Below, piece by piece: positions 1 through 55,900 of a stretch of DNA of 64,000 bases. The notes beneath the pieces were generated by a model. The model saw nothing but the letters and a program-made list of their open reading frames with translations, was not told where the DNA came from and ran no database searches. Numbering within the stretch: the first letter of the stretch is position 1; every line of letters begins with the position of its first letter. The position numbers and the translations under genes were made by a program. Origin of the DNA: Antedon mediterranea (Eukaryota > Echinodermata > Crinoidea > Comatulida > Antedonidae); NCBI RefSeq assembly GCF_964355755.1, contig NC_092670.1:17359201-17423200 (forward strand), in the 5' to 3' direction.

Positions 1-164
1 AGATGGTAAAGATAGAAAATGGGTTGATTATTAGGAAACGATGTTCTACAAAGAGCTGTAATCCTCGTATCGACAAGATGCTCATTAACAATCCAATGCT
101 AATTATCAATTCTCTTCAAATGTAGATTAACTTTTATTTAATGATCATTGCAATGTAAATCTAG

Positions 165-250
165 ATGACATTATGGTGAATGATAACTAGGTATTTGTCA
201 CTTATAAAGTGACATTATGGTGAATGATACCTATGTATTTGTCACTTATC
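165..250. repeat. tandem duplication, about 43-bp unit
   Basis: Two adjacent copies of a unit that begins 'attatggtgaatgata' and ends 'tatttgtcacttat' are visible, differing at a few positions. No function is suggested. Confidence 0.7.
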
Positions 251-1879
251 AAAGTTAATTTTGCCGTTTTGACTTTAAGTATTCCTTCAAGAACTGACTT
301 TCATTTGGAATAGCTGTGTAATCACTCTCCATACGCTTTTATGAGCCACTAACTTCTGCGGAAATTGAAGGACCGCAAATAAATAGGACACACGATTATA
401 CGCCTTTACAGTGAGACAATCAGTTAATAGTGTGAAAATTAAAAGTTGTACAATACTTGTTTTTAATAATAAAGTTACAATAAAATTTGAATGATGAACT
501 CTGAAATTTTGAAACTCTACTAGCAACATATGAATAAAAATAATACAATAAAAACTACTTAAACCAAACTCATTGTTAATATTATAATAAAAATACATAA
601 CAAAAAATATTAAAATTGGATACGCTTGCATTCAATAATAATAAAAATAAAATAATATTTTTTGACTGATGTACTCTGAAATTTTGAAACTCTATCAAAG
701 TAGAAAAAAAGATACAATAAAAACTACTTTAACCAAATTGATCGTTACAATAAAAATTTGAATAGATAACAAAAATAGATTTTCATCACTTAACATTTAA
801 TGATACTAAAACGCCATTTACGAGTTTACAATTCAATGAAGGTCAAAGTTTAGGGTTATAACAGACGTTGATGTAATCAATACAGAATTTCATATGTATA
901 TAAACACGATAAACTCCCAAATGATTTGGCGTAACAAATTGATATGATATAACTAATTCTAGGTATATTCAATATAAAGCTTTTACACATCTTCTAATTA
1001 TAAATTCTATTTAATTAGGTTACCGGTAACGCACTATTACAATTCTACTGTATATTAAAACTATAATGATCAACGTGCAATGGCACTACTGTATCTTGCA
1101 CACAAAAAAATGTTCTTTCCATCGCACTATAAGCTATCTTTTCTCTTTTATCCATTGATTTTGGTCATAAAAAAATAGTAGGCCGCAAATGCACAACTCT
1201 TAACTGTAAATAATCTTACGCAGGGGACTTTTTTTTTATTCTTGGGCGATTTTTATATAGCCTTATTTAAATTTCCTGAAACTCCTTTTAAAAAAGTATA
1301 TAATAACACAAAAAATAAAACAATCAATAAAGTCAAGCATGTTGTGTCAAAATATACATTTTCCTACGTTTGTTAATATATCAGAAATAGAACAGTTAAT
1401 TCGTCATCAACTATCGCTTGAACACGAAGGCTGAACTAAGATTATTTATCAATCTGTTTGCTGCAGCTAAAAATAGTTAAAGCAAAGCGATGATGTAAAT
1501 GAAGTATTAGTCGATATGACCCAAAGAAACATTATAAATTCACAGCCATATAAAATAATTTGTATTTATTACTTAGTGATTGATTAATACACCTTCACAA
1601 CTCCGGTTTCTACCTTTTACCTCGATTCAGAGAAAATCCAAGTAGATACATACACTGAGAGTTATTATTAATAAGAAGTTATTAAATGAAAGATTTGAAT
1701 ATTAGATAATCAAGTGGATAGATGAGCCTGGATATTTTCAATCAATTCTGTACCAATTACTGGTTAGAAGTATAGAATGAGCCACTTAACACATACTCTG
1801 TGTTTGGCCATTAGTAAAACCCTCGCTACTATGTGCAATTCATCGTAAGATTTATAGGGCATTTAAGCTTCTTTATATA

Positions 1880-2020
1880 AAGCTCTGTCTACACTATCAA
1901 ACTAGTAAGGTGTGATGTGCCCAAATATGGTAGTGACATGCCCAAATATGGTAGTGATATGACATCAGTCAGCATGTCCATAATTATATGGGCACATCAC
2001 ATTATTTTGGTTTGAGCTTA
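1880..2020. mobile_element. MITE family A, copy 1
   Basis: The left terminal repeat 'agctctgtctacactatc' is intact, followed by the family core 'gatgtgcccaaatatggtag', here partly duplicated, and its reverse complement 'gggcacatcac'. The right terminus is degraded ('tttgagctta'). The family recurs at least seven more times in the window. Confidence 0.75.
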
Positions 2021-3472
2021 CAGATATAAATAATCTCTCAAAAGTGACTTTCTGTGAGACAATCAACCCATTTATTTCATTTTCATTTCATTTCATTTAT
2101 TTCGTCTCACATACTTATAACAAAAAATAACAAACAAAAGAGAGAGACAGGATTCCCAAAAGCGAACTAAATCAAACTATCAAGTGGGTCTCCAAAAATT
2201 TTTTGTGTACGGTATTGCAGCATGGATGTCCGCAAACAATCTCAGAAACATTTAGTAATGAAAAGAAATGTGTTAAGTACTCAAAATAGGAAGAAGGTTA
2301 AATCTGAAAGGCAGACAAAAGTTGTTTTGCATTAAAAAGTAGAACACACGCAATAGGAAATAATAACGGCAGCACATTTCCTAACATAAATATATTAGTG
2401 TTTATCTACCACTTCTCTTTAAATTCCACACATGTCATTGTTAACTTGTGGTTCACTGAGCATAGATACTATCAAAATGAAGCTCGTTATCAGTTTGGTA
2501 CTTGTCCGTGTCTACTCCTCTAACGGTTTCATTAAATGTAACGATGATTGCCTCGTTCAATCAATTTCTTTTCACCTTCAAATAAAGTGTGGACAGAATC
2601 CATCTACAGTTTTGTAATGAAGACACTGTACAATGCCAATAGCAAGTCATTTCTGAATTCAATGGCAAAGCTTAATTGTAATCCATCTAATGAATATGTT
2701 TGTTGGTTAATAAAAAGAGTAAAGATTAAGAATTTGGATTTCCACCAGGGCAGATTTACAGGGCTGACATTGTTTAAAAAAAAATTAGTGTATTAATAAA
2801 GTGTATTTGTATGTTTTGTCAGTCCTGGATGCCAGTCCTGATTTTCTCTACAAGATTTTCATGAGTAAATAAATATTAAAATAGGTTAATTTCAGCTAAT
2901 TATTCACTATTTTTTAAGCCCATCTCCAAGACTGATGATATCCAAACATGTATGTGGAACATACTATAGATGCACTGATCACGATTAAGTGACAAGAGAA
3001 ACCTAAATCCAAATTATGAGAGGAAAATGACAATTGAATTTGATTTGTAAACTAAAAGTTAGCATACCACAAGTTATTGATATAATATTAACAAACCAGG
3101 TCTACAAATCTTACATTCAACTCGGCATCATTAATAAGAAGAATGACGAGATTATAATGTAATCAAAAGACTTATGAGATTCTATAGCAATTATTACTGT
3201 CATGGATAAATTCATGTCTTGGTAAGAAAACACTAAGAAGGATTATTCTTTGTTGTTAATAGAAGATATACATTGCTGAGTATCATAATTGAAACAAACA
3301 AGATTTACTTAACAACAGCACAATGTACTAGACAGCAACATGTTACTCGCCAACATGTTATTTAGCTGGCATAACTGTGTCTAGTGTATAGTGTTTGTGT
3401 GTTTGTAAAGCAGATTCGCAATGTCTCAATAACACTAAAGGCTTGATTGATTGATTTAGTTAGTTCGTACTA

Positions 3473-3800
3473 TCAAAACTTACAATAGTTGTCTCTTAGA
3501 CACGGCAGACTGGGGCTAATACTAAATGAAGTCAAAACTTACAGTAGTTGTCTCTTAGACACGGCAGACTGGGGCTATTACTAAATGAAGTCAAAACTTA
3601 CAGTAGTTGTCTCTTAGACACAGCAGGCTGGGGCTATTACTATTAAAATAAAGTCTTTTGTCACGGCAGACTGGGGCTAATACTAAATGAAATCAAAACG
3701 TACAGTAGTTGTCCTGGCAGATTAGGCCTATTACTAAATGAAGTCAAAACATAAAGTAGTTGTCTTTAGACATGCCAAACTGAGACTAGATTACTAAAAA
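3473..3800. repeat. 59-bp tandem satellite, about 5.5 copies
   Basis: The unit contains 'acagtagttgtctcttagac' followed by 'cggcagactggggct' and 'actaaatgaagtcaaaac'. The first three copies are nearly identical with a 59-bp period; later copies are shortened and diverged. No open frame runs through it. Confidence 0.85.
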
Positions 3801-5019
3801 TAAGTTGGGACTAATTTTCAGTAGATATGGTATTCTGCGGCTATCTGGGGAGTTATCAACAACTCTCTATTACTAAATTGAGTCGGAAGTCCAATAAGCC
3901 TGAAATAAAATATCTGTAAAAATACAGTTGCACTAGCGTAACATGAATGATGAATTTAAATAGTAGTTGCACAATAGATATACTAGGCCCTACCCTGAAA
4001 ACAAATATCTGTAATACAATGTATTACATAACCCTGACAGCAAAAATAGCTGTACAACATTCATAAACTATCAGAACAAACAGATTGAACCCAATTATTA
4101 TTATGTAAACATGCATGAAGCAAAATTGCAAGCATGGTCAGCAAAGCGATGATTTGAGCATGCTCAGTGCAAACCCCACAGGCCTACATCTAATTTATGA
4201 AATGTATGCATCATACACAATTATTATATACAGTATAGAAACATGTATAAATCTTGTTTAAATGAGCCATTTTAATATTGTTGGTGAAATATTTATTTCG
4301 CTTTAAAATATCTATAGTAGAGTTTAGAAATTTACTTTTTAATCAATTGGAAAACATTTGATAGCTGCAAAATCAGCAACCAGCAAGCAAGTAAGCATTA
4401 TGGGCAATTAATTTTATTAAAAAATAAGTAAAATATAAAAATTGGTAGATTAAGATAGACCAAAAAAGTGTTTACAACAAGTATTACAGCCAGCAAACAT
4501 TTTAAACTACTGTAGCAACCGTTATGAAAATTTACTATCTAGTGAATTTTGAGCCCTGTGATGTAACAATTGTACTGTCAAATCTGTCACCAATACTGCT
4601 CCTGTAAGAACACTAAACATTTTTTTCTGTGTATTGATCATGAAGCAGATGTATTTTAATACATTGATACATTTCAGGAAACTAAACGAAAACATAAGTA
4701 GATGACAGACTGATAATAATAATTATATTTCATAAAAATAATTACGGTATTATTCATTATTATAAAAAAAAATTATTTAAAATATTACAATATTCATGTA
4801 TAAGTTTTAAAAAAATTCAGAGTGTGATGATGTGTTAACTGGGTTAGGTTTGCATCAAACAAACAATAAAGTCGCAATTATTACCCAATTAATAATCGAA
4901 TAAAAAATGACATGTTGTTTGTTTTTCGGAGCTAAGATTAAAATATCAAATATATATATATATACTGTAGTATTAATATAAAACACAACACATGAATTAA
5001 CTAAAAATTAATGAATTCA

Positions 5020-5073
5020 TGGGCACATCACATGTTTTTGTCACATAGAGTTTGATAGTGTAGACAGAGCTTA
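5020..5073. mobile_element. MITE family A, right-end fragment
   Basis: This piece has the core 'gggcacatcaca' and the right terminal repeat 'gatagtgtagacagagct'. The left half is missing, or displaced to 5155-5217. Confidence 0.7.
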
Positions 5074-5154
5074 ACATTACAAAATTATGTAATGCTAAAC
5101 TAAAAATAAAAGTTTATAAAAATCCATGTTTGTACTTGTGAGGACCAAAAACCA

Positions 5155-5217
5155 GTGCGATGTGCCCAAAAATGGTAGTGATATGACATCATTGTGTCCA
5201 TATATGGGCACATCACA
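5155..5217. mobile_element. MITE family A, core fragment
   Basis: Only the inner core is present: 'gcgatgtgcccaaaaatggt' through 'tatatgggcacatcac'. No terminal repeats remain. It lies about 80 bp from the right-end fragment, so one older copy may have been broken and rearranged. Confidence 0.65.
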
Positions 5218-5784
5218 AAAACCAACCAATTAGGAAAATAAATTGGACAAAATGTAATTATTTTGTTGCCATAAAAAAAGTTGATTAATGAAATTGTCTA
5301 AATTTCATAAACTTATCTACGAGCAAACACATACAAGATGAAATAAGACAGTTGCTATTTGCGTAAAAAACAAGAATCCAACAAAGATATTGTGTTGCGA
5401 CTGTTTGCAGAAAACACTTAATTTACAAGAAACTTAACATTGTGTACACACACATACCGCGATAGGTTAATTAGCATATAAGTTTTATTTTTAACTTGTT
5501 TGTTTGCCGACTTGTTTGCTGCCAAATGCTAGCACTCTTTAAACATGATATTGGTTATATTTGCCGCACTAAATAAATTATGAAAGCTTGCTATAATTAA
5601 TGACATGAGTTAATTTTCAAGGTGATCAGGTTGAAGCTAATATTTGTACATGAATGCTGATGAGACATATTTATAAGGTAAACATTAATTTCAGTGAGAT
5701 TAATGTTCTTTAATGTTACAGAAGCAAGATTATGTGTTTTGACTTTTAATCTTTTCTTAGTCACAAACAATGTTCTGACATCTT

Positions 5785-6171
5785 AAGCCTGGCGCACACT
5801 AGAGCTTTCGGCTGAGCCAACTGGCACGACGAGTAGCACTTTGCTCACAGTGTGCGCAGGGGAATTCGTGAGGAATCGGCCATGCTTGCCGCTGAGGAAA
5901 ATATCTATTGTGTTTAATAGTTTTTGGCACGCATGACATTTTCCTCAAGTTTGCGCCGAACGTGAGCAAATAGCTCACTAAAAAATTTGCATGACATGTT
6001 CTGATTTATTATGTCAGTGCGTCCCGTATAGCGCAGTAAGTAATTATCCAATCAGAAAAATTTAGTGTGCGTCCGATAGAACACAATCACAGGTTGCGGC
6101 AAATTGTTTTGTGAGCCAAGTGTTACTCGTGCCAGTTGGCTTAGACGAAGGCTCTAGGGTGCGCCGGGTTT
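5785..6171. mobile_element. 388-bp inverted-repeat element (MITE)
   Basis: The ends are imperfect inverted repeats of about 60 bp. The left end reads 'aagcctggcgcacactagag' then 'ccaactggcacga'; the right end reads 'tcgtgccagttggc' then 'gctctagggtgcgccgggtt'. There is no transposase-like open frame, so it is non-autonomous. The target-site duplication is not clear. Confidence 0.75.
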
Positions 6172-6377
6172 CAGGAATATTTAGGTTACCCATGGAGATA
6201 CAGTATTTATACCGTCATGGTTACCTATGAAAAAAGAAACTAATAAACTAAAGTGTAAATTTGAAAAACTATGTTAAATTTATACTGTTTATATGGTTCA
6301 TAAATATGATGAAATACTATCAAACAATAAGGAAAAGTGTTCATTAATAAGTCTAAGTTTTCAGAACAAGCTAGCCT

Positions 6378-6465
6378 GAAGGAATGATGATCTATGGAAA
6401 AGAAATGATATATGGAAAAAGAATGATGATCTATGGAAAAGGAATGATGATTTATGGAAAGGACT
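6378..6465. repeat. about 21-bp tandem repeat, 4 copies
   Basis: Units of the type 'ggaatgatgatctatggaaa' follow one another with small variations. It is the source of the repetitive short frames on both strands here; these are not taken as genes. Confidence 0.75.
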
Positions 6466-6509
6466 GAACTGTATGAGATTGAGATGTGTAGTTGATGGCC
6501 TAAGACATA

Positions 6510-6715
6510 AAGCTTGGTTCCCACTAGGATGTAAGAACAAGTATTTGAAATAATCACCGTGGCATGTATCTATCCCATGGTAAATTGCTTGTGTTGATGA
6601 AATGTTGGTAAGTTTCACCTATTTCTGATCTGGTTCAACACCAAAGAACAATTCTCAAAAATATTGTGTTGTGATTGCAAGCCTGCATTTAGTCCTACTA
6701 GTGAGAACCAAGCTT
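6510..6715. mobile_element. 206-bp inverted-repeat element (MITE)
   Basis: The left end 'aagcttggttcccactagga' is matched in reverse by the right end 'tcctactagtgagaaccaag' with a few mismatches. No coding capacity is seen. Confidence 0.7.
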
Positions 6716-6839
6716 AAATAATCCCTTCACATCGCCTAGCTTAACTCTGAGGTGTAAACACTTTTTATATTGTGTTATCCTGTACAACTTTAACTCTTTT
6801 CTGTGTTGTTATCTGTACAATGATTTCTTAGACTAAGCT

Positions 6840-6852
6840 TCTTTATTTGCTA
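6840..6852 (-). terminator. probable SNRNP48 polyadenylation signal
   Basis: The minus strand has AATAAA here (plus strand 'tttatt'), about 65 nt beyond the SNRNP48 stop codon. A short 3' UTR would follow. More AATAAA words lie close by near 6885 on the plus strand, but those are in the wrong orientation. Confidence 0.45.
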
Positions 6853-6911
6853 TGGATATATTATGTGATCATGGTATTCCAAAATAAATAAATGAATGAA
6901 TGATACCTTAA

Positions 6912-9900
6912 TCATCTTCTTTCTTTGTGTTTATGTTTCTTGTGTTTTCTATCTAGGTCATGTCTGTCTCTGGATCGTGATCTACTTCTGTGTCTGCGAC
7001 GATCCTTCTGTGGTTTAGTTCGATGCGGTGAAGCATTACGTTGTGGACTAGATTCGTTTGAAATTCTGCTGCTGCTTTGGCTCCCTTCACGTGAGGAATG
7101 TTTGGAAGAAATTCTAAATAAAAATATTAGAAAAAAAAAATGAAAAAGGTAAATTTATTTGCACGATTTGGTTAAATGCCCAACCAGCAAGAGTTTAGAA
7201 TGTTCAATTCGCCTAGTGGAAAACAGGCTTTAGACATTTTTTCCAGACTTGATACTGAATGAAGAAATTCTATATTAAAAATATTTCAAATAAATTAATT
7301 ACAACACAGATAATACAGATATATTAATATCTCATCTATTTTTTTTCAATCTATTTTTTGCAATGCAAAAATGCAACCTATCAGAGGTCAGGAATGTTTG
7401 ATTCGCCTCGTGGAAAACATGATTTAGAAACTTTATCCAACACAACACCGTTCGGCGCATTCCTAAACCTTTCCATTATGATTTTTCTGCATTGTACACA
7501 ACAAATATTATTTATCACCATACTTAAGTTACATGTAAACTCAATAGTGATTATATGTAAGGTAATTAAAATGACAAATTTAGAGCAATTCATGATCAAT
7601 CAATGTATCATTAAATCTTCCGACACATTATTCCAAAACTCAAAGTTAAGTAAACACCTAATAAAAACATAAAAATCAATGTTATTAACATAAGTATGAA
7701 ATGTCAACACATGATTCCTTTCTAACGGATGACATCAATTCAATAACTCTGCAATGACCCACTTTCACATAGTTAGAAAGTAGTGCAATTATTGTTGCCT
7801 AACATCATCAGAAAAGCATTTATTACGTACAGTACAGTTGTCCAATAACTGTATAGTGCTCCACATTAAACTATCATTTCATTTATTCCACATTTATTTA
7901 GTCATCATAATTGCAATACAACTGATAACAATGATCCTGCATAAAAAAGCTGTAGCTTCGTTTTTTTTGTAGAACCCTTTTACATAAGAAAAATATAAGT
8001 AAATAGAACTTGGATAAAACAGTCATTTCCCATAAACAAAGGTGTTGTTAATCGGCATATAGTGATAAAAAGTATTTTTTGACCTGTTTTTTTATACATA
8101 TTTTGTTTCTTTAAAATAACCCGTTTATTATCACCATAACAGTTTAAGAAAGCTTACAGATAAGCAAACCAGCCCATAAAATCATTCTTTTTGTATTGAA
8201 ATCATTGTACACTATGAATATTAATTCAATGGAACGTTACAACAGACGTATGAACATGAAGATAATACACACAAACTAAGCAAAAATATCATTTGATTAT
8301 CTCATTTTGAAATACATTACTTTCGTGTCACCACTACTGTATTCCATGCAGCAACATTTTCTTTACACAACACACTATTGGACTACACGGCTGTTGTGTC
8401 AACAAGTCATTCTGCAAATGCTCATGAGTCATCATATGTTTCTGAGCATGTGCAGAATAACTGAAATCTTTTATAAGAAATTAGATTAAATGAGCATACC
8501 TTTCCGTACTGGCCTTTCTCCTATCTTGTTCTCCATCATTATTCTCCTCTATTTTATTTCTAGTATTCAGTTCAAACAAATCCTCCATTTGTGAGTCTAT
8601 AACCTCTCTTAAAATCTATACAAATAAATAAAGTAGCTCTTTAGTATCTGATGAGGAATTGTTTATGTGTACAATATAAATACAGAACTTTGTTACTCTA
8701 TTCATAGAGATATTATAGTTCACTATAATATCTCTATGCTCTATTTTATAATGTCTAGCTAGAAACTTTTTAATTAAATTTAAATTGCTCTCAACATTTT
8801 GAGACTATATTAGTTTTGTTTCCATCAATTCACTTAAAATTGTTTTTAACTAGACAAATCTGTCATATTTTATTGTCTAAAATTTCAATTCCTAAAATCA
8901 CTAATCTTGATCAATTTAAGGAGATCATTTCAAATTAATAAGCCACTGCTCTTTGTCAGACAGGCGTATTTAAGAAGAAAATCAGTACCAAGTAAGTAAG
9001 TATTATCTTGCATTGGTAGATAATTTATGTCAATTATGATGAGTTTAAATCCTTGAAAAGCAGTTTGGTCACACTCATACCAACCTCTGTCTGTGATTTC
9101 TTGTTTGACGTCACTCCTTTGGACTTGCCTTTGTAGGTCTGCCGACGCCTCTTGTAATCCCGCTGAGCTGCGAGGAGTTCTAAATACGTTGTCGGCTCTT
9201 TCTTTTCTTCTGTAGAAAGCAATAAATTTATATAAGTTTAGCTAATTGAGTCACAGGTACTATAAATAAATGCAATTCACCAGTAATACCGAGACCTAAT
9301 TGTTAATGTCAAAGGTCATCTACTTAGTGTTTGTTTACAAATCTGAATGGTTCTATAAAAATATCAATGATTTACCTTTCAACTGCAGTAGTGGGTCAGA
9401 GGTCAAATCAACACTTATTACATTGTCACTTCGCACTTTCTTAGCAACCTTCACAACATGGTCGTGGATGAGTGCTCTTTCATGCGGTGTCAGGTTGGTG
9501 ACCTCTCGTTCTGCTGTCAAAGCAACTGGCTTTTGGGAATAAACACCTAAAAGAGGATAAAAACATTGATGTTTATTGCAAGAGTCTTAAGCTCTATGTG
9601 ATAAACAAATGTGATGTGCCCATATATGGACACATTGACATCATATCACTACCATATTTGTGCACATCACACTTTTTTTGTCAAACTAGTTTAATAGTGC
9701 AGATAGAGCTTTAGCAATATTGTGTTTCTTTCCATGTCTTTTTAATAAAAGTCAAATTTTCCAAATTTTCAATGACTCATTGTAAAGTGTCTTAAGCTCT
9801 GACTACACTATCAAACAAATGTGACAAACAAATGTGGTGTGCGCCCATATGGACATGTTGACATCATATCACTACTATATTTGAGCTAATCACACTTTTT

Positions 9901-12398
9901 TGTCAAACTAGTTTGATAGTGTAGATAGATCTTTAGTAATATTATGTTTCTTTCCATTTCTTTTAAATGAAAGTCAAATTTTCCATGATTTTCCCAATGT
10001 TCAATGACCTGTGTTTAAACACAACATGTTTCTATTTCAGGACAGAAAGGACAGAGAGAGTAATATAGCAAAGTACAGACTGGAAACCAATAACTTTTTA
10101 ACACTACCATCACTTGATTCTTAGGTACTTGACATGAAACAAAGAAGTTCAACCCACAATCCCGGAGAGAACAAAGCATAATATGATACAACACACTCTT
10201 TATTGTCAAACAGATTACTACAGTACTATTAAGTTTGAGATACATTTTGTATTGTTCACTCAAGTGCACAAATAATATATTTTTAAAAAGTACAATCAAA
10301 AGAACGAGGAAATCAAAGAAGGTAAAGATATATAACGTAATATCTTTATTGTTTTTTTTTATAAGAAATAAATTTCATCACAAATGTTTCATCTTATCAA
10401 AATAATCCAATTACATTTAAACATATTTCAACTGTGTTGATAGAAACGGTGTTTAAGAAAAGCAATTTTATCGAGTGGGAATCATTTTATAGACACACTT
10501 TGTCCATATGATGTTTGAAGACTTTACGTTATTTTTCATGGAAAATTTAAGGATACTTTATTATTTTTTCTTTAATAAAATAGAATAAAAACCCAAGACA
10601 AGCAGCTACACTTGATGGTTTACTGAAGTAAGTTCTATTTAGGATGCTCTACACAAACAAAGTTGTTCTGTTATAAAAACCCTAGAATCTTAAGATTTGA
10701 ACCCAGGACCCAAGGATCGGTAGTCAAGCACCAAGGAGATAAATGTTGCTCTTTCAAAAATAAAAAAGATGTCTAAAAAATCAATTATCAGTCAAGGATA
10801 CCATTAAGGATATTAGATGGTGTATGATATAATCAGAATGTGAAGAAAACAAGACGAGAGTCAACACTGTAAAGAAAAAATACAATGAATATATTATTAA
10901 ATTAACATTTCAAAGAATGTAACGAACATTCACATTATTATTAGTAATGGCCGAAAAAATTACATTAAAAAAAATAATGTGTTGTTTCATTGCTGTGAGA
11001 CAAATTGGTAACATTCTGTTGACTGTTAAAACAGTAGGAGTGCTAAAATAAATTAAATTTAAATGTATAATTCTGTATACACGTTTACCTGTTCCCTGTA
11101 ACAGGATATCCGATTGTAGCTTTTCATCTGAAAAATAAACAGTAGTTAAAATTAAAGTCATATTGATGATGGTTGGGTAACACAGAGACAAGAGCAAAAA
11201 CACGTGTCGAGTTGTGAAGAATTCAAACACAGGTAGCAATTATTTATGAGAAATTCCATATAAGAGGCCTTTTATATATAAATAGTATTAAGCCTGGTCT
11301 ACACTAACAAACTTTATGTGACAAAAAATGTGATGTGCCCATATATGGACATGATGATGTCATATCACTACCATATTTGGGAATATAACTACCATATTTG
11401 GGCACATCACATTTGTTTTGATAGTGTAGACAGAGCTTAAACATGTTTAGGAGTAAAGCAGGATAACTAAATGATTTGTAACCAAGACCTAGAAATTGGT
11501 AGGCAAGACATATAATCAACAACCTACAGGTCCACTCACCTAATTTAACAGACACTACATTCTTCATTTTTGAATACAACCAATCTAAAGATGACATTTG
11601 TTCCTGAAAAAAGAAAATTAGTAGTATGTGATATTTGTTTTAATTACTATTATTTAATTACAGTATCACGGGATAAACTGTATCCTATAAAGAGTAATAT
11701 CACAATGTGGTATACAGCACAAGAACTGTAACTCAGCTACTGATTGTTAAGTTGTGATACCATTTCTATACTCAATACAACCATAGACATCTTTACCATT
11801 TCCCTTTTATTGTGACAACTTTCCACCCTGGAACACTGAATGCTTTTAGACCAGTGACTTGTTCTATTAAGGACTTTCTTGTAAAAGTCATAATAATTTC
11901 TGGAATAGATGTTTAGACATACCTGTTCTTCCAAAGTGTAGCCGTGTTGACTTAACTGACACTGCTTAGAATGACTTTCAAGAGTCTCCTCCGATACAAA
12001 ATGATCATTATTTACTGGACACTGCACCAATGGCTTGCAGTCCTATTATAAGGAATAAAAACATTTAATTACATCGGTCTTTTAAAATTAGGGGAGGATG
12101 AGGAGAACAACAAGACAGCGTTTTCCTGCCGGCCATTGTGCACTGTCCTTCCCATTTTTAGCTTGTTCCTGAATTTGTTATCGGAATAAAATGAAAATGA
12201 AATACTGGTACTGGTATTTTAATAATTTATTTATTTATTCATTATTATATTATGATGCTGACAAACCATGGTCTTGTCGTGTGTCCAGTTTAACTTGACC
12301 ATCAGATTATCAAGTTTCGCTTCATGTTCACCAATGAATTCACTCAAATCTGAAATTATGGTTTGTCTTTCATTATCGTCTGTTTGTTGAAATTCCAT
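6912..12398 (-). CDS. SNRNP48: U11/U12 snRNP 48 kDa protein (U11-48K), complete
   Basis: Protein of the U11 snRNP that helps recognise U12-type 5' splice sites in the nucleus. Coding exons in transcript order: 12398-12267, 12042-11923, 11603-11540, 11127-11089, 9546-9376, 9209-9085, 8615-8500, 7113-6912. All introns are GT-AG with matching phases, giving 322 aa (human protein 339 aa). The CHHC zinc finger of U11-48K is in exon 2: C52, H58, H68, C72. The family hallmark TYLELLAAQRDYKRRR lies at residues 183-198, followed by a TE-ILREVID segment. The C-terminus (about 277-322) is rich in R, S, K and H and ends KHKKHKHKERR. The start is the only ATG in the exon giving this frame; the same exon continues upstream as 5' UTR to about 12409. 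The donor of exon 6 is weak (GAG then gttggt). Intron 4 carries a USSE-like element, described separately, suggesting autoregulated splicing. Identification is strong. Confidence 0.95.
7160..7450. repeat. diverged duplication in SNRNP48 intron 7
   Basis: Two segments about 190 bp apart share 'attcgcct.gtggaaaaca' and neighbouring words. They look like an old duplication within the intron, possibly of a dispersed repeat. No protein is recognised in either. Confidence 0.4.
8703..8738. repeat. perfect 16-bp hairpin in SNRNP48 intron 6
   Basis: The arms 'catagagatattatag' and 'ctataatatctctatg' are exact inverse complements around a 4-nt loop. It lies about 90 nt upstream of the exon 7 acceptor in the transcript. 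A role in RNA folding is possible but unproven. Confidence 0.6.
9590..9711. mobile_element. MITE family A, copy in SNRNP48 intron 4 (a)
   Basis: Core 'gatgtgcccatatatggac' with 'catatcactaccatatttg' and right terminus 'gtgcagatagagct'. The left terminus is shortened to 'agctctatgtgat'. Confidence 0.75.
9795..9932. mobile_element. MITE family A, copy in SNRNP48 intron 4 (b)
   Basis: The left end 'agctctgactacactatc' and the right end 'gatagtgtagatagatct' are both present, with the family core between. It is the second unit of the segmental duplication. Confidence 0.8.
10690..10750 (-). mobile_element. tRNA-derived SINE-like fragment
   Basis: Read on the minus strand the sequence ends in a B-box-like 'gggttcaaatctt' preceded by a tRNA-like arm ('gactaccgatccttgg'). 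The acceptor ends do not pair, so this is not a working tRNA gene. A tRNA-derived SINE remnant is the simplest reading. Confidence 0.4.
10785..10866 (-). other. predicted poison exon region of SNRNP48
   Basis: The sense strand has a long pyrimidine tract ending 'ttttttctttacag' immediately before 10866. Joined to exon 4 (phase 1), the following sequence stays open for 26 codons through the tandem U12-type sites and then reaches an in-frame TGA near 10785. Use of this acceptor would therefore truncate the protein before most of its conserved parts and expose the mRNA to decay or nuclear retention. A matching U2-type donor was not pinned down. Confidence 0.6.
10794..10813 (-). promoter_or_regulatory. 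USSE-like tandem U12-type 5' splice sites (U11 binding element)
   Basis: On the SNRNP48 sense strand there are two U12-type 5' splice-site words, ATATCCTT (10813-10806) and GTATCCTT (10801-10794), separated by 4 nt. A third GTATCCTT lies at 10556-10549. They sit in intron 4, about 275 nt past exon 4. The family knowledge is that U11-48K and U11/U12-65K genes carry such tandem sites (USSE), which bind U11 without being spliced and activate an upstream 3' splice site, lowering productive mRNA. Here a strong 3' splice site lies 53 nt upstream at 10867. Motif and gene are seen; regulation is inferred. Confidence 0.85.
11290..11438. mobile_element. MITE family A, copy in SNRNP48 intron 3
   Basis: Left end 'agcctggtctacactaac', core 'gatgtgcccatatatggaca', duplicated 'ctaccatatttggg', right end 'gatagtgtagacagagct'. 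It is flanked by TTA on the left and TAA on the right, compatible with a TWA target duplication as used by PIF/Harbinger elements. Confidence 0.8.
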
Positions 12399-13361
12399 AT
12401 TGTCTTGTCTGTAAAATACTGCAGAAAATAAACAACTTAAAAGTTATATTAACAAATATTGATGACTAGGCTAGGCCTACTACTCTAGGCGCTAGATATT
12501 ATTATTTATAAATAACAAGGCAAAGAAAATAATTAATTGAAAGAAGATTATACAGTAGGCGCCTTTTACAACATATATACAGTTAGTACGCGCTAACCTC
12601 TAGGCTAGGCCCTAGGCCTATACCTGCGACCAGCTCACACAGCAGTGACAGCAGTCGAGCGGGGTTAATGATCGGGTAGGCTATCCCGGCTAGGCCTACT
12701 GCCTGCCTGTGACACAAAACAGGCTGTGTACAGTGGTTAGCTAGCCGACTAGAGAACGAACGAAAGACCTACATTAATTCCTATGTCAGTCGATATTTTG
12801 ATTTGTATAACATTTCTTTATATCTCATCAACTTTACACTTTGATTTTATATACGTACCTTGAAATCAAATTGTTTTTATGGTAGCGCATGTTTTTTAAA
12901 TGTCGCCCTCACTTTTATCAAAGAAAAGTTCTTTGCTTTTATCAATAATGTCGCCCTCTCCAGTGTTGCAGAGATGTGGGGGTTTCCAGTACGCGATACG
13001 GGTCTGGGATTTTCCAGATCATCTGGATAATATAATATACGTATCTATCGACTATTAAGTTGAATCGCCATCTAGAACAAAAACTACCTTGTAGTTATCA
13101 TCTTACTCTTTCTCCTTCATCTTATAATTATGATGCGACGCATAAACGATGATACACTATACAATACCCAGATCACCCTGTTTCAAATTTTAATTTATAA
13201 GTACTGTATACAAGATTTTGTGATCACATGAAAAATACATTTTTCTCAATACATTAAATTATTTATATTTGACAATAATATGACATGCTCTCTGATTTTT
13301 CAACAGAAATGTCTATTTCAGATAGTATTGAAAATTCAGTCAATTACAATACTCTGGTGTT
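12399..13361. other. SNRNP48 5' region and PYCR 3' flank
   Basis: No coding exon is seen. The SNRNP48 5' UTR exon seems to start at an acceptor near 12410 (minus-strand 'tattttacag'). A possible non-coding first exon ends at a minus-strand donor 'gtatag' near 12624, in a stretch rich in 'ctaggcctag' words and relatively GC-rich, so the promoter probably lies at about 12650-12800. The remainder up to 13361 is PYCR 3' UTR or spacer with no clear signal. Confidence 0.45.
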
Positions 13362-29600: not shown

Positions 29601-32600
29601 TCATTCAAGGTTGGATGTAATTGTATGTTTATATCTTAAGCTTAATGTTGTGAGTAAATCATCTTGTATCTTTCTTATTTATGTTTACTATGAAAGAAAT
29701 GAATATTATTTCTTCCTTTTCTCGATTATAGGCCTGTGTTGAAGAAGGTAAATCAGAAAACACCTCTATTGCTACCGAGCTGGTCAAACGATGGTGATCA
29801 AGTTGTGGAAGAAACCCCAATTAGTCAATTTAATGATGTAAGTTTCGATATTTATAATCAATTTAACATTTGTATCATAATTTACTAATACCCAAAGGCA
29901 AGTTTTTGGCTCCAACTGGTATTCAAAAGTGTAAGAAAATCTAAGAGTGATAGGTCAGTTATAGCTATTGTCAAAGGAAAAGATCAATTAGATCTATAAA
30001 ATACAATACATTGGAATTGTTTGTAGTTGGATAACATACATTGTATATATTATATATAATTTGGTATTTTGCCTAATTGACCAAAATATATTTATTGCTC
30101 TTATAGGTTGATCACAATACACAGAGTTTTGTAGAACCTGATCCCATCATTAGACCTTTTGGATCACCCTCACCGCATAAGATGCATGGAAGCTTCTTGC
30201 GAAAGGAAAGTGAAAAACTTTTAAATATAACATCTCCTAGACGTAAATCTCCAGCACGAGTTGCTACAGCATCACCATTTGCTACATCTGCTACGAAGGG
30301 TATTAGGAGACGTCTTAATATTGAGGATGACCGCAAATTGGTAGGTATAATACTAGACATAGATTGACAACAATTTTTGTTTTTTTGAAAATCAGTTTTA
30401 TCAAGTATTTACTAGACATCGTAATTCTAAAAACATATACAAAAAGTTTTTTACCCAGTATTTACCTGTTTTATGTAGTTCCCAAAGAGTCTCTAACTTT
30501 CGTATCTACTTTTAGAAATATGTAACAATTGCACCATCTCCGAAAAAGAAACTCGTCTTGACAGAACATCAGAAGGAAGTGATGAGAGAACGAGGTGTGG
30601 TACCCACAATGTACAATGACTTGGACCAATCACAGGACACTCAGCTGTTCTCAAATGTGTTTAGCCAAACTCAAGACAATACTAATTCAAGGTATGATAA
30701 TTTTAAGTTGATTCCAGTAGTATTCCTCAGTTTTGTTAGTGTAAAGTTGAATGGGATGATATGCTGGTGTCTTGCTGCCAGTATCATGTTTATTTGTTTG
30801 TTTGTTCATTTTTATACTGGGTGACCTCTTCAGTCAAAGACTGATCTCCCAGAGGACCCAGTTGGTGATCAGTGGCTGTGATGTACTAATACACCGGGGT
30901 AACCCCCTACTCGTCTCGAAAGATGTACTAGGTTCTTTAAAGTGCACACGAGCTAGTTGTGTACACTGGACCTACGGTTTATAGTCCTTATCCGAGAAGA
31001 CTCGTTCTACCACCAGAACCATGCTGTCCTAATGTAGACTATAATGGAAGAAAGTAGGCGCAAGGCAAATAATTTGGTGAATCAGAAGTGACTGCTCAGA
31101 TGAGACAGTGTTTGTAGTTTCACCTAGTATTAAACTTAATTTTTGAATTTTTTTTACAAGTTTTAATAACAAAAATTAATTGTATCATCCAAATATCACG
31201 TTTAAAACCTTACCTTGTTTTTATAGTATGAAGGAAGCAATAACTGGAGCAATCGACTCGTGTATGGACTCGAACCAAGGAACCTCTAGCAAAGTAGATG
31301 ATGACAACATACATCAACATTCTGATTGCCCATTACTAGAAGAAGCAGTTGGACCAGACTTCTTTTGGAAGAATAATGCAATGACAAACACGAACCAGCA
31401 GGAAGAAAGTAGCCAAAAGAAAGTGAATTTTGATAATGCATTCGGTGAAAAGGGGTCTCTATCTAACAGAGAATCCAATACAGATAACAAAATGAATGAA
31501 AAGAACTCAATTGAGAAAGAAAAGAAAATTGAAAAATCAGAAGAAGTTATGACTGCCGTTGACTCTGAAATGATTGATTTAAGCTCTGAAATTGTAAATA
31601 CTCCAGAAAAGAACAAAGCAAACAGTATTGAATTAAATGCAGGGTTGGTTGTGTCTATTGCTGAAACTCAGGACATTCTAATAAACACACAAGGCAACGA
31701 GAAAGTTGTGATTCAGTTGCCGTCGCATTTAACACCAGAGAAAAAAGTTGGTGAAAACATTGATGATTCAGCATTCATTAAAAAACTAAAGTCAACACCA
31801 GTTTTGAAAATTTTACGAATAGCAGAAAAAGATTCGAAAACTTTCCAATCTCTTGACGTTACCAGTAGTCCAAACGTGTTTGGTAGCCAATCAGAACAGG
31901 GTTCAGGAAAAAAGCGATCATTACGAAAAACAAAGTCGATGGATACTGTCTGCCACGGTTCTCCTACCTTGCGGAGGTCAAAAAGTGTTGATGACATCCC
32001 AGATGGCACTTGTGAACGATTAAGTTGTACTCAAGATGATTTGGCAAAACTAGCTGAGAAGTTTGAATTTGATGATATCAAGCCTTTGAATGATGACTCT
32101 GATATTGAACAAAGTGAGATGAAGGATATACAGAATACTAATGGAGAAATTGCCAAGACTAAGAAGTACAAAAAGTCTGCCATTAAAAAAAATGATACAC
32201 CAGTAAAAAGAGTAACACCAGTAAAACAAAGTGCTAGAAAGAGAAATTCTAAATTTAATAAATTGGAGTCTATTGACGAGAATGCTGTGAAATCTTCTGA
32301 CAAATCTGAAAGTAACGATCAAGTGAAACCAGCAGAGATTAGTTTGAATGAACCTTTAAAGGTTAAAGGAAAAAGAGGAAGGAAAAGAAAAATTAGTATT
32401 GATAACATTGAACCTGTTGAGAATATTGAAAAAGAAAAGGTTGATTTGGTTCAACCGGAGACACGGAAAAGAAGAAAAAAGACAGATTCTTATACAAGCG
32501 ACTCAAATATAAAAGAAACTGTTACAATTGATGCCTCAATTGTTGACAAAGCATCTTCAACCACTGATGATGTTGAAGCGGAAAACGTGTCCATCAATTC

Positions 32601-35600
32601 TTGTGAAGACATGTTTGAAGGAATGGGTTGCACACAAGAGACTGCTGATCAGAATGCTGTTACGGCAGAAGAAGCAATTTCTAATCATCTACCTACTACA
32701 ACAAAAGTGATGAAAACGTATGGAAAAGAAAAGTTTCTAGAAATGAAGGCACCAGTTGTTAAAAATTATTTAGATGTCAATGTAGAAAAGCCTTCTGATT
32801 TTGAAAGTGAAGATGATCTAACCCTTGCAGAAATAAAACAATGTTATCTTGATGGTGATAGCCAAGAATCGGCCGATGAGGAAGAATCTGGGAATAAAAT
32901 AAAGGAGCTACATGTCATTTCTGATGCTCATTCTAGTAAAGAAACTGAAAATGAACCTCCCTTTTTTCAAGTGAAAGAAAATAAAAAACAACACACTTTA
33001 AAATCAATAAAGAAAAGGAGTCCAGAATCTATTTTCTCTAAGAAAGCTTTGAAATTAGCAATGAGATCTCCCGGCAAAAGAACACCAAAGAAATCACCTA
33101 TAAAACCAGCTAGGACATCTTCTGGAAGGATTGTGATGTTGCCACGGCGGTTAAGATCACAAACAGCTCCTGTTGCTGCTAGATTACGATCAAAATCCGG
33201 CGAACCAACTCAAAGTCGCAAAATGTCACTGATCAAACGAAGATGTTCCACTCCAAAGAGTCTCACAAAATCAAAATCAGTCTTTGATGGCATCTCAAAT
33301 GAGCCACTTCTCTCTCAGGAATATAAGATATTCAACATTGAGGAACAAAATAGTAAAGAAAATACTTTACCAGTAATCAGTGAGAGTCCTGAAAAACGTA
33401 TAGAGTCTTTAAATGATGTGGAAACCAAAGATAGTCTATCGGCTATTGATCTTCCTAAAACCTTGGACTTGATTGACAGCACAATCCTCGATGACAATAT
33501 TCCTAGTAATTTAGGGGTTAACCCTGTTGATTTGTTAGATCATAAAGAGATTGAATCTTGCCCAGAGAATGCAGAAAATGAGAACAAAGAAAATATTGAG
33601 ATCAAAATGGAGGAAGAGTGTGTAACTGAACCAGTAAAAGAAAAGACAATTGAAACTGTATTAAATGAACTGTTTGAAGAAAAAGAGTCTGTTGAACAGA
33701 TGAAGTCTGATCCTATTGCCAACAAAGAAGAGTCTATTCAGGATAAAGATCTTTCCATCAATAGTGTCCTCATTGAAGACAATGTCACAGATGTTGAACA
33801 AGATGATATCAAAAGAATATTTGAAGAAAAAGATGAAACAGAAGATATCATAAACAGCAGTCAAAGTCCTTCACAATCATCTGAAGCTACATCACGCATT
33901 GATGTCTTGAAACAAGCCCTTTCACAAATAGAATCTCCCAAAACATCAATTAGTACAAATTTCACCAAACTCATTCCAACAGCTCTTTCAACTTCTCCAG
34001 TCATTCCTGTAAAATTCTGCCAACAATATTCATCGCCAGAGTCCTCAATTCAGAAAGCAGATCTTCCAGAACATGCCATTCCTGGAGTTTTCTCACCTAA
34101 TGTGTCACCAAGTAGTGGTATCTTGAAGCGACAACCTGCATTAAGTGACTCACCTTCACCAAGGGTAAGAACTATTACTTTATATTTAATTTGCATTTAA
34201 AATTGCAAAGTGCAAGTGAGAGAAAATACTAAACATAAAAGTTTTGATGATGCAGGACCCTTTTAAAGACACACCTAATGTCTATATTACAATGCTTTTC
34301 ATTGGATAACAAAAGACCTTCCTATGTAGTGTACAATCATCGTCTGCATGTATTTCACCCACAAAGAGAGTAGAAGCTGTAAACTTTGTCTAGGTCAACT
34401 TAGGTCAATGTGTTGTAGCCAAGAAAGGAACTATGATGGGAGGTCAAATTATGCGGAATATGAACAGCTCCTATACAGCAAAAAGAATGTATCAAAGATT
34501 GAAAGACAGTCCAGAGAATAATTTGTTTCTCAATATTTTTTCACCAAATTCAGACAAGACGTGTAAGCTTTGCTGACCCAATAGAGCAGCTTGATTCTGA
34601 TGCCAAAGATGCACTGAGTGAAGGAGGGAAGTCTGTAAACAGGTGTCTTGAGATGAACCGACAACTAGCGACATCACCTCTGGTAACGACAACACCATCA
34701 AAGGTTGTCAATGTTAACTCTAGAGTAAGTTGGTTTGTAGTTTAATTATTTAGAATCTGTAGAAAATTGGATTGGGCTTTTTTTTCGAAGGTTTGTATGG
34801 TGAATAAACACTTGTAAAGTTACGTTTGCGGTACACCTGTGTTCCAAACAAGAAATAGAGTATGTTTGAGAATGTCGTGACATTTTGGTTGTTATGCTAC
34901 AACCATCTTCTGGAGTTTTAAGGGTAGCGTGCACTGTACAGTATACTCATTGATTTAAGAACTCGTTTTTATTTTATTTCTTGTGTAGTTTATAACTACT
35001 CCGTCAAGTTCAAGAAAAAACAGATTGAAAACCGTAAGCTGTGGAGCTAAGAGATTTAGTAAATCACCAAATGAAAGGAGAAGAAAGCTACGAGACTACA
35101 GTCATGCATCTCCAAGGCTCATTAGAAAGGTGAGTAAAGGCTTGACCTTATCTTGACCTTAAAAACAGTTGCAATAAATTTGAGCTACATTCAGACCATC
35201 AAAATGAAGACAGGAGCATAAAGTATTTATATTTTGCTAAATATTTTGTTTTGAACTTTCTTACACAGTAGCCATTTTTATTTTATTAGGGATTTCATGT
35301 AAATGGCTTACAGGTCAGTCAAGACTCTCCTCTAACTCAGGGCTCACCAGGTAGCGGATTTGACAGTGACCATGAGAAGGATGAATTTGACCCACTGAAA
35401 GCTGTCTTCCCTCAATTGGTCAACTGTACAGCTCCTGTGGTCAAGATCTTACCGAAGTTGACATCGTCGATGTGGTAAGTATTGTATTATATGGGGAGAT
35501 CCTCTTTGCGTAGAGCTTATTGGCAGTTGCAGAGAGCTCATGGCAGTTGCGGAGAGCTTATTGGTTGTTGTGGAGAGCCTATTGGTTGTTGTGGAGAGCC

Positions 35601-52900: not shown

Positions 52901-55900
52901 TTTAAATAATTGTCCCAGATGCAGTGCATGGTGGATTTTTAACAAATCAATAACAGGGAAAAAGTCATTTTCTTTCATTTTTTAAGTCCTTCCTAACCAG
53001 TTTTTATTTTTGAACACAAGTGTCTTGACCCAGATTATACTTACCTATGAATGGATACAGAAACTGTACAATGGTCAGAAAGTAATAGCCCACTCTCCCG
53101 AATGCTACTTCAACTAGCCCTTGGTATGTGTTGGTACCAGATAAATGCCCGCTTTTGATAAGTAGAACCAATGAATAATCTGAAAAACAATAATAATATA
53201 AAATGATAGGAGATTTTTAAGTACAGGTTTTTGTTTATATAAGGGGACTTATTCTACAACTGGAGTTTTTACAGTGCACTTTATGCCTACCACTAGAATC
53301 GTAGAGTTTTTTTAAAGTGTAGTTAAGTGACTGCGTACACTTTGTAGTACCTTATTTGACAATGTTTATTGCAATGTTTCATAATTTGTTGCATAGGCTT
53401 CAAATCAAAATAGAGTATCATTTACAAAATTTCAAGTAACAGAATCAATACTGTAAAGATCTGTAAAGATCTGTAAAGATCTGTAAATATCAGTACAATC
53501 AACATGTAACATACTGTATTAGCAATCTGTATCTATGTTGCTCATAGCCTTTTGTGTACACTATTCACAATGTCAAATAAATACTTTTTTTTTAGTGTTT
53601 TCTAAAAAAACAGTTGTTTAATTTGCTATCGTTTTATTTTATTCATCAAACCATAATTTAATTTTGCAAATTTGAATAAAAACCAACTGTTTTTTTCCTA
53701 TTGTAAAAATGCTGTAAAACGGTTCAGTAGGTTTTTTAGAGAGATTAATTTAAAAAAAATAAATCAATCAGTCCACTTTGTAATAAGAGATAGATATTAC
53801 TGTGTATTAAATGCACCTGCCTATCAGCTATTATACACAATTTATTTAATTTATTTATTTATCTTATAAACCAAGGTGCCACAACAGTAGAAATCTTACA
53901 TTTTTCCTTAATTGTCATTACCATATCCCTTATAAGGTAAATTTACCAAAACATTCCTTCATACAACAGCTATTTTAAATCATCAAGTTAATGTATTTCT
54001 TATTTAAAATATCAAATCATTTGGTTTCAGCATACATTATGTATTTTACTGTACATGCTTGAGGAAGTGTTACCATAGAAACAACAAGCATTATTTTAAT
54101 GACTATATTATGATAATTATAATTAAAATGATAATCTTCAACAATTAAGATTATTTGCCCGTAGAATTCTTTTATATTGTTTACTGTATTGTGTACTGCT
54201 TGACATATTATAATTGTGAATCGTTAACTTTTTTGTGAATATATTATATGTATTTGATTTTATAAACATTTTGTATGGAGAGTAGAGTAACCAATAAATA
54301 TTATTATTATCTTTAGTTTATTTAATATGTATTCTATTTGTATGTATTTGATTTTTAAAATGTAAATTGAATTCTACTGATAAATGAATAATTTAGAACG
54401 TTAGAATGTCAATGTAAGTATAAATCAACTGGAAGGTATCAAATATTATATTCAATTTGTAGCATTTCACATTTCAAAGGAATGTCATTTTTTATTTAGA
54501 GGCTTAAAGGAAAGATTTCTTAAATATTCTGTCAATGTGTTGAGAATAAATTATAATATAATTTAGAGCTTGTTGTATATATGTACTGTATGTTGTCATA
54601 TAATTTGTATTTTATTATATCCATTCTGTATCTCACTACCTGCAGTATGTATTACAATCCCAATATCAGACTCTCTGAAAACTGCAAACTCTTCCAAAAC
54701 CAGACTTGTCTAGAGATCCAAAATGTACCAAATTCATTTTTTTTTTTTTCAATATAAAATTTAATTTAATATCGGTAGTATATTACGAACAATATTAGAT
54801 AGTTGCTATAGAGATAACTCAATAAATTTTTTAGGTATGACTATCTCAAAAAACGATGTATCTCTTGAAACCAAAGTATATAAGAAATCCACTAATAAAG
54901 GCTTATTATTACATTATGATAGCCATGTGGATATCAAACATAAACGTAATCTAATTCACACAATGCTTAATAGGGCCTACAAATTGTCATCTACGCATGA
55001 CATTTTCCTATCAGAGGTTGATAATGTAACTAAGATTTTTCAAAAGTTGAATTATCCTTTAGATCTTATTAGTAATATTGTTAAGGCTTTCAACCAATCC
55101 ATTAATACTTGTGTGACTCCTAGTAATACTAATGAAGATATGCTAACTGATGAATCTCCCCAGCCTATTAGGATTGTACTACCGTACAAGGATCAAACTT
55201 GTTGTAACACGGTTACTAAACAACTTAAACAACTTAGTGCGAAGATTGAAAATGATATTTTACCAGTATTTACTAGTCGTAAGATAGGTGACACCTTAAA
55301 ACCTAAAGAAATGAAACCCAGAATCATTAATTCACAATGCGTTGTGTACAAATTTCAATGTGGTTTGTGTGATACAAACTATGTCGGTTACACTTGCCGA
55401 CACCTTTACAAACGCATTAATGAACATAACAAAAGTATTATAGGCGATCACCTAAAACAACATGGCATAACTGGTGATATCTCAGGCCCCGTTTCTGCTG
55501 CCAAAAATATACCGTATATATACGGTATATTTTATATACGGTATATTTTTTGGCAGCAGAAATGGGTCTCATAAAAAATATACCGTATATATATGCGGTA
55601 TATATACCGCATAAATATCCCCATCGTTTGTGGATATTATACGGTATATTCCAAAATATACCGTATATTTCGTACCCCGTTTCTGCTGCACTCAAAATAT
55701 ACCGTATATGTGACCCGGCCCATGACACGAGGTCAAAAACTAACAGAGCGTGACGCGTTTGTTTTGTTTTTCTGCTGCATTGACACACGTACGTGTGTAA
55801 TAAGCAAGCAACAGATCAAAATATCACTGTGGACTGAAGAAATAACTATTTTTGCAATTCAATTGTGGGGAGAAGCGAAGGTTGGGGGGAGACTACATGG

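Follow-up and report, generated by a model that had tools for sequence, protein, structure and literature searches.

Intron 4 of the SNRNP48 (U11-48K) gene of the crinoid Antedon mediterranea contains, in the sense of the gene, the tandem U12-type 5' splice-site motif ATATCCTT-AATG-GTATCCTT, with a cryptic U2-type 3' splice site ahead of it. U11-48K is one of the proteins by which a rare class of introns is recognised, and the repeated motif is the signal in whose recognition it takes part. We consider it very probable that this arrangement is a real and well-formed USSE, acting as a self-limiting switch of SNRNP48. The published USSE, as presented in the matched passages of PMC5473595, PMC8329584 and PMC3584512, is composed of tandem U12-type 5' splice sites which bind U11 snRNP without being spliced, and activates an upstream U2-type acceptor by exon definition, yielding an unproductive SNRNP48 mRNA. 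Only two genes, one of them SNRNP48, are reported to use an element of this type in the matched part of PMC6865273. According to the excerpted review text both animals and plants have the USSE, with the strongest conservation in vertebrates, and Diptera lack it (PMC3584512), and the hosts named among the matches listed are plants, animals in general and vertebrates, with Diptera devoid of it (PMC5473595, PMC8329584, PMC3584512, PMC6865273, PMC11039992, PMC7244321, PMC7367187, all seen as excerpts). The label "CT+67" in the excerpts of PMC5473595 refers to the 5' splice-site positions +6/+7 and not to a distance.

The SNRNP48 gene

Within the window, i.e. the whole stretch of 64,000 nt of DNA analysed here, the gene lies on the minus strand. 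Its assignment to SNRNP48 in the preliminary description was right, since the translated exons match the zf-U11-48K zinc finger (PF05253, 28.5 bits against a cut-off of 21.1 in the Pfam profile search) and the human U11-48K structure (8R7N chain F, E 6.7e-23, query residues 8-217). The exon map is as follows.

12267 to 12398, minus strand: coding exon 1, ATG at 12398, weak donor ATG/GTTTGT
11923 to 12042, minus strand: coding exon 2 with the CHHC zinc finger (zf-U11-48K), from reading frame and Pfam
11540 to 11603, minus strand: coding exon 3
11089 to 11127, minus strand: coding exon 4, 39 nt, with CAG/GTAAAC as its normal donor
9547 to 11088, minus strand: intron 4, 1542 nt, in which the element lies
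9376 to 9546, minus strand: coding exon 5, with a predicted 5' extension in the retained form
about 9085 to 9209, minus strand: coding exon 6, its end placed at a donor-like site
about 8500 to 8615, minus strand: probable coding exon 7, with boundaries set by eye
6912 to 7113, minus strand: last coding exon with an arginine/serine-rich tail, start inferred

The end of exon 1 is less certain because of its weak donor. The stop-to-stop frame 6912-7154, which encodes the arginine/serine-rich tail, gave no Pfam match at E 0.01, and no known RNA family was found in the window at Rfam gathering scores. Coding exon 4 holds the word ATATCCTG (11109-11102), which differs from a U12-type 5' splice site at one position. 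In the introns, at 11304-11440 and 9547-9950, there are repeated segments in which words like CAAATATGGTAGTGATATGA and ATATGGGCACATCACA occur; similar words are found elsewhere in the genome at the loci L014 and L020, and the segments resemble a dispersed short mobile repeat.

Two other open frames of the window deserve mention. The frame at 54765-55574, which we take to be perhaps part of a Penelope-like retroelement, has a weak GIY-YIG match under the Pfam cut-off (21.2 versus 22.6 bits), and the 1006 amino acid frame at 31180-34200, without a Pfam match at E 0.01, is RIF1-like by eye only.

The tandem motif and the cryptic 3' splice site

The components of the element in intron 4 are listed in the order of transcription.

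10867 to 10992, minus strand: AG-free zone of 124 nt that includes a poly-T tract, ending in the AG 10868/10867 of the cryptic U2-type 3' splice site
10814 to 10866, minus strand: spacer of 53 nt from the cryptic 3' splice site to the tandem, first part of the predicted poison exon
10806 to 10813, minus strand: first U12-type 5' splice-site copy, ATATCCTT, then AAT
10794 to 10801, minus strand: second U12-type 5' splice-site copy, GTATCCTT, then GAC
10781 to 10783, minus strand: in-frame TGA of the form continuing through the tandem
10549 to 10556, minus strand: third, single copy, GTATCCTT, not significant alone

Two sense words separated by 4 nt had been described in this intron, and they are found as such at 10813-10794. 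The third motif (10556-10549) is present as well, but its weight as evidence has to be withdrawn: in a Markov simulation 1238 of 20,000 introns contained at least one RTATCCTT, so that some 6% of such introns are expected to hold one and the third copy says little. Nor are single motifs enriched in the window, where four were found on both strands against a shuffle mean of 5.68.

Joining at the cryptic AG would make 10866 the first exon base, and the first repeat follows 53 nt downstream. The preceding AG is 126 nt away, with 124 nt free of AG between the two. Among the 6597 AGs of the window (both strands) this is the only one to combine such a distance with pyrimidines at 14 of 18 positions and at -3, a figure which is descriptive because these limits were derived from the cryptic site itself. 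The constitutive acceptor of exon 4 has a similar AG distance (141 nt) and a lower pyrimidine fraction (0.72). By a crude weight matrix the cryptic site is 12th in the gene, slightly below the AG at 10992 of the same intron, and outranks two constitutive acceptors, that of exon 4 (17th) and that of exon 2 (outside the top 25). The site had been called strong, which is right in part: its AG-free zone and pyrimidine content speak for it, and its matrix rank gives a mixed picture.

Predicted products and proposed mechanism

If exon 4 is joined to 10866 the frame is interrupted in neither repeat and runs to the TGA 10783-10781, in agreement with the in-frame stop foreseen for the product of this site. 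Early stops are also predicted for cassette forms with their ends at 10802, 10814 or 10499. All four modelled products stop after 145 to 149 codons, well beyond the zinc finger and ahead of most of the conserved region of exons 5-6. The alternative mRNAs would thus lose the protein encoded from exon 5 onward, and since exon junctions follow the stop downstream they would be expected to meet nonsense-mediated decay.

The candidate U1 donors near the cryptic acceptor are weak by the crude weight matrix (2.4 at 10802 and 5.2 at 10499) compared with the constitutive donors at 11540, 11923, 11089 and 9376 (7.2-11.0); the exon 1 donor at 12267 is outside the top 25, with a score under 4.2. No strong U1 donor closely downstream of the cryptic acceptor was found in the gene-wide weight-matrix scan. 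A mini-exon form is mentioned for mammals in the excerpted text of PMC5473595, and the S8 legend of the same paper names an extended exon 5 ("E5E") as the long form driven by the USSE in CHO cells. Because a close and strong U1 donor is missing, a mini-exon of the mammalian type is not evident here, the likelier product is an exon 5 with a 5' extension or a larger cassette, and the E5E type of form would fit SNRNP48 in this species better than the mini-exon.

The mechanism which we propose is modelled on the known members of the USSE family. When plentiful, U11 snRNP or the U11/U12 di-snRNP, which contains U11-48K, would bind both unused sites at 10813-10794. The bound U11 would then, via exon definition, help the major spliceosome to splice at the cryptic 3' site after 10867, and the resulting junction of exon 4 to 10866 would lead either to a cassette exon or to an extended exon 5. 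The forms with an early stop would be degraded or kept in the nucleus and, in this proposal, U11-48K would therefore limit its own amount.

U11 and U12 snRNAs and the reading of the repeats

A profile search of the genome identified two U11 snRNA loci (88.6 and 82.9 bits) and one U12 snRNA locus (125.7 bits). The two U11 loci (L001 and L002) are diverged and lie on different contigs, both score above the Rfam cut-off and their first 13 nucleotides are identical. U11 begins AAAAAGGGCTT, and its 5' end AAAAAGGGC is predicted by RNAduplex to form 5-pair duplexes with both tandem repeats. The U12 gene contains GTAAGGAA.

The core consensus of the U12 branch point is TCCTTRAY. The tandem repeats continue as TCCTTAAT and TCCTTGAC, and both match this consensus. 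RAY after TCCTT was found in 17 of 261 cases in the non-overlapping DNA examined, including the two repeats, in 15 of 259 without them and in 17 of 267 when one overlapping locus was counted. In RNAduplex the three copies pair better with the branch-point stretch of U12 (-6.2 to -6.5 kcal/mol) than with the U11 5' end (-4.3 to -4.7 kcal/mol), and the reverse is true at the U12-type 5' splice site of RNPC3, where U11 is slightly better (-5.2 versus -4.9 kcal/mol). These values, together with the presence of GTAAGGAA in the U12 gene, could indicate that the repeats are, or also are, U12-type branch points read by U12, alone or within the di-snRNP. Even a hidden U12-type intron is conceivable, which might run from ATATCCTG in exon 4 (11109-11102) to an AG at about 10774, some 19 nt past the branch-like A of the second repeat. 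We regard such a reading as very unlikely. The match of both repeats to the consensus is post hoc and may be due to chance, and so may the one-mismatch word ATATCCTG in a coding exon, while the RNAduplex energies leave out the contact made by U11-48K and RNA modifications. In addition, compensatory U11 mutants rescue the mutated USSE of mammalian 65K according to the excerpts of PMC5473595, which identifies U11 as the reader of that element.

Occurrence of the tandem motif in the genome

The pattern RTATCCTT-N1-12-RTATCCTT was searched on both strands of the genome (354 Mb, 18 contigs). It yielded 82 rows and the reversed-pattern control 70, the raw counts barely exceeding the control because repeat arrays dominate. 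By eye 17 of the 82 rows were retained as isolated pairs (SNRNP48 and 16 others) and 65 were discarded as arrays, a sorting to be read with the caveats that the discarded row C7:21608829 is a triple 8-mer like the retained L008, and that the retained L008, L014, L016 and L018 appear locally repetitive. The tandems expected per 1542 nt of one strand are about 3.7e-5 from the 17 isolated pairs and 1.8e-4 from all 82 rows, and in a first-order Markov simulation one in 20,000 sequences of intron length contained a tandem. With one mismatch per copy allowed, the SNRNP48 tandem is still the sole pair on the sense strand of 6900-12450, and five pairs are found on both strands of the whole window. The statement of the preliminary description that such a tandem in this gene is very unlikely by chance agrees with these figures.

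A dispersed repeat was also considered as the source of the tandem. It was rejected, as the 136-nt tandem region has a single match in its own genome (by a search which passes over very common words).

The 16 other isolated pairs, belonging to 15 loci, were viewed in 1 kb of sequence, five of the loci in 10 kb and ten in 1 kb only. An acceptor-like AG 25-90 nt upstream with an AG distance over 100 was present in one of the 17 isolated pairs, that of SNRNP48, and in two at the looser limit of a distance of at least 40. The second pair passing the looser limit (C2:35093862) has the best-looking layout elsewhere in the genome, and lies among open frames which are transposon-like by eye. Another pair, C10:21615506, is near exons which we take to resemble USP34/USP24. 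Among the printed open frames of at least 60 amino acids, no minor-spliceosome gene was recognised by eye near the five loci viewed in 10 kb.

Should the motif in intron 4 be just two adjacent U12-type words without any role, in an intron that is long and AT-rich, the lack of enrichment of single motifs in the window and the other isolated pairs, 15 of 16 without an acceptor-like AG upstream by the limits used, would be in keeping with this. We hold this to be very unlikely, as 4e-5 to 2e-4 tandems are expected in intron 4 and the one observed is in one of the two genes reported to use the USSE in the excerpts of PMC6865273, in the sense orientation, and preceded at 53 nt by an AG that ends a 124-nt AG-free zone. 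Least probable of all is a cassette exon or alternative 3' splice site of the ordinary kind, free of U11 control, the tandem being incidental or bound by another factor: the 3' splice site is credible alone by its AG-free zone, but the tandem would be left unexplained, as a coincidence in exactly SNRNP48.

Comparison with vertebrate USSE elements

The USSE of vertebrate SNRNP48 (U11-48K) was reportedly the subject of Verbeeren et al. 2010 and Turunen et al. 2013. The element described here shares with it the gene, the intron before exon 5, the sense tandem of U12-type 5' splice sites, the upstream U2-type 3' splice site and a non-productive product, the latter being predicted in our case. It differs in having no good U1 donor nearby. 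Both repeats here continue as RAY. As to the position, the earlier suggestion of the same intron as in vertebrates agrees with the extension of exon 5 in CHO cells (excerpts of PMC5473595), on which the comparison is based. The preliminary description had further proposed that the USSE loop operates in this species, and this is supported by the identity of the gene, the sense orientation and spacing of the motifs, the upstream site, the predicted stops and the U11 and U12 genes of the genome.

A related case is the autoregulation of SRSF10 under minor-intron control, in which, as in the loop proposed for SNRNP48, the level of the minor spliceosome sets the choice between productive and non-productive forms (matched passages of PMC7244321). 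In SRSF10 the U12-type site is truly spliced, whereas the U12-type sites of SNRNP48 should only bind. With respect to these systems, SNRNP48 of this species very probably represents a well-resolved further animal case of the known USSE kind, and the exact junctions predicted for its alternative forms can be checked by RNA-seq.

RNPC3 and SNRNP35

Two further minor-spliceosome genes were located.

C4:15240337-15232600, minus strand: RNPC3 (U11/U12-65K), locus L005
C4:12894717-12897388: SNRNP35

None of the 82 genome-wide tandem rows is near SNRNP35. RNPC3 is the other USSE host in vertebrates, and the SNRNP48 element described here shares with the vertebrate RNPC3 USSE the signal and the exon-definition logic (both after excerpts of PMC5473595). 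In contrast to vertebrate RNPC3, the 10 kb spanning the matched RNPC3 exons of this genome contain no tandem, even with one mismatch allowed per copy, and the last intron itself is U12-type. The 10 kb contain two single sense RTATCCTT, one being the 5' splice site of the last intron and the other lying 220 nt past the stop codon. The intron (1861 nt) starts with GTATCCTTTA and ends with TTTTCCTTCATAATGAAATCAG, which makes it U12-type by motifs, and the spliced product gives a gapless alignment to human RBM40/65K (3EGN, 5OBN) with E about 7e-20. It also contains a long minisatellite-like repeat. RNPC3 is already termed a minor-intron gene in the matched text of PMC6865273, so that a U12-type intron in this gene is not new as such. 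The lack of a tandem in this part of RNPC3 does not bear on the definition of the element in SNRNP48.

It is conceivable, if unlikely, that in this lineage SNRNP48 and RNPC3, which are linked, are oppositely wired, SNRNP48 being repressed by the minor spliceosome via a USSE read twice, as 5' splice site by U11 and as branch point by U12, and RNPC3, devoid of a USSE, needing the minor spliceosome for its last intron. Retention of that intron is computed to end the protein 11 codons beyond the exon, and in the case of opposite wiring would cut short the C-terminal RRM; a negative loop on SNRNP48 would then be paired with a positive loop on RNPC3. Independently of such wiring, the contrast between SNRNP48 and RNPC3 within one genome suggests that separate gain or loss of the two USSE hosts is possible, a point relevant to the way in which the minor spliceosome adjusts its own abundance.
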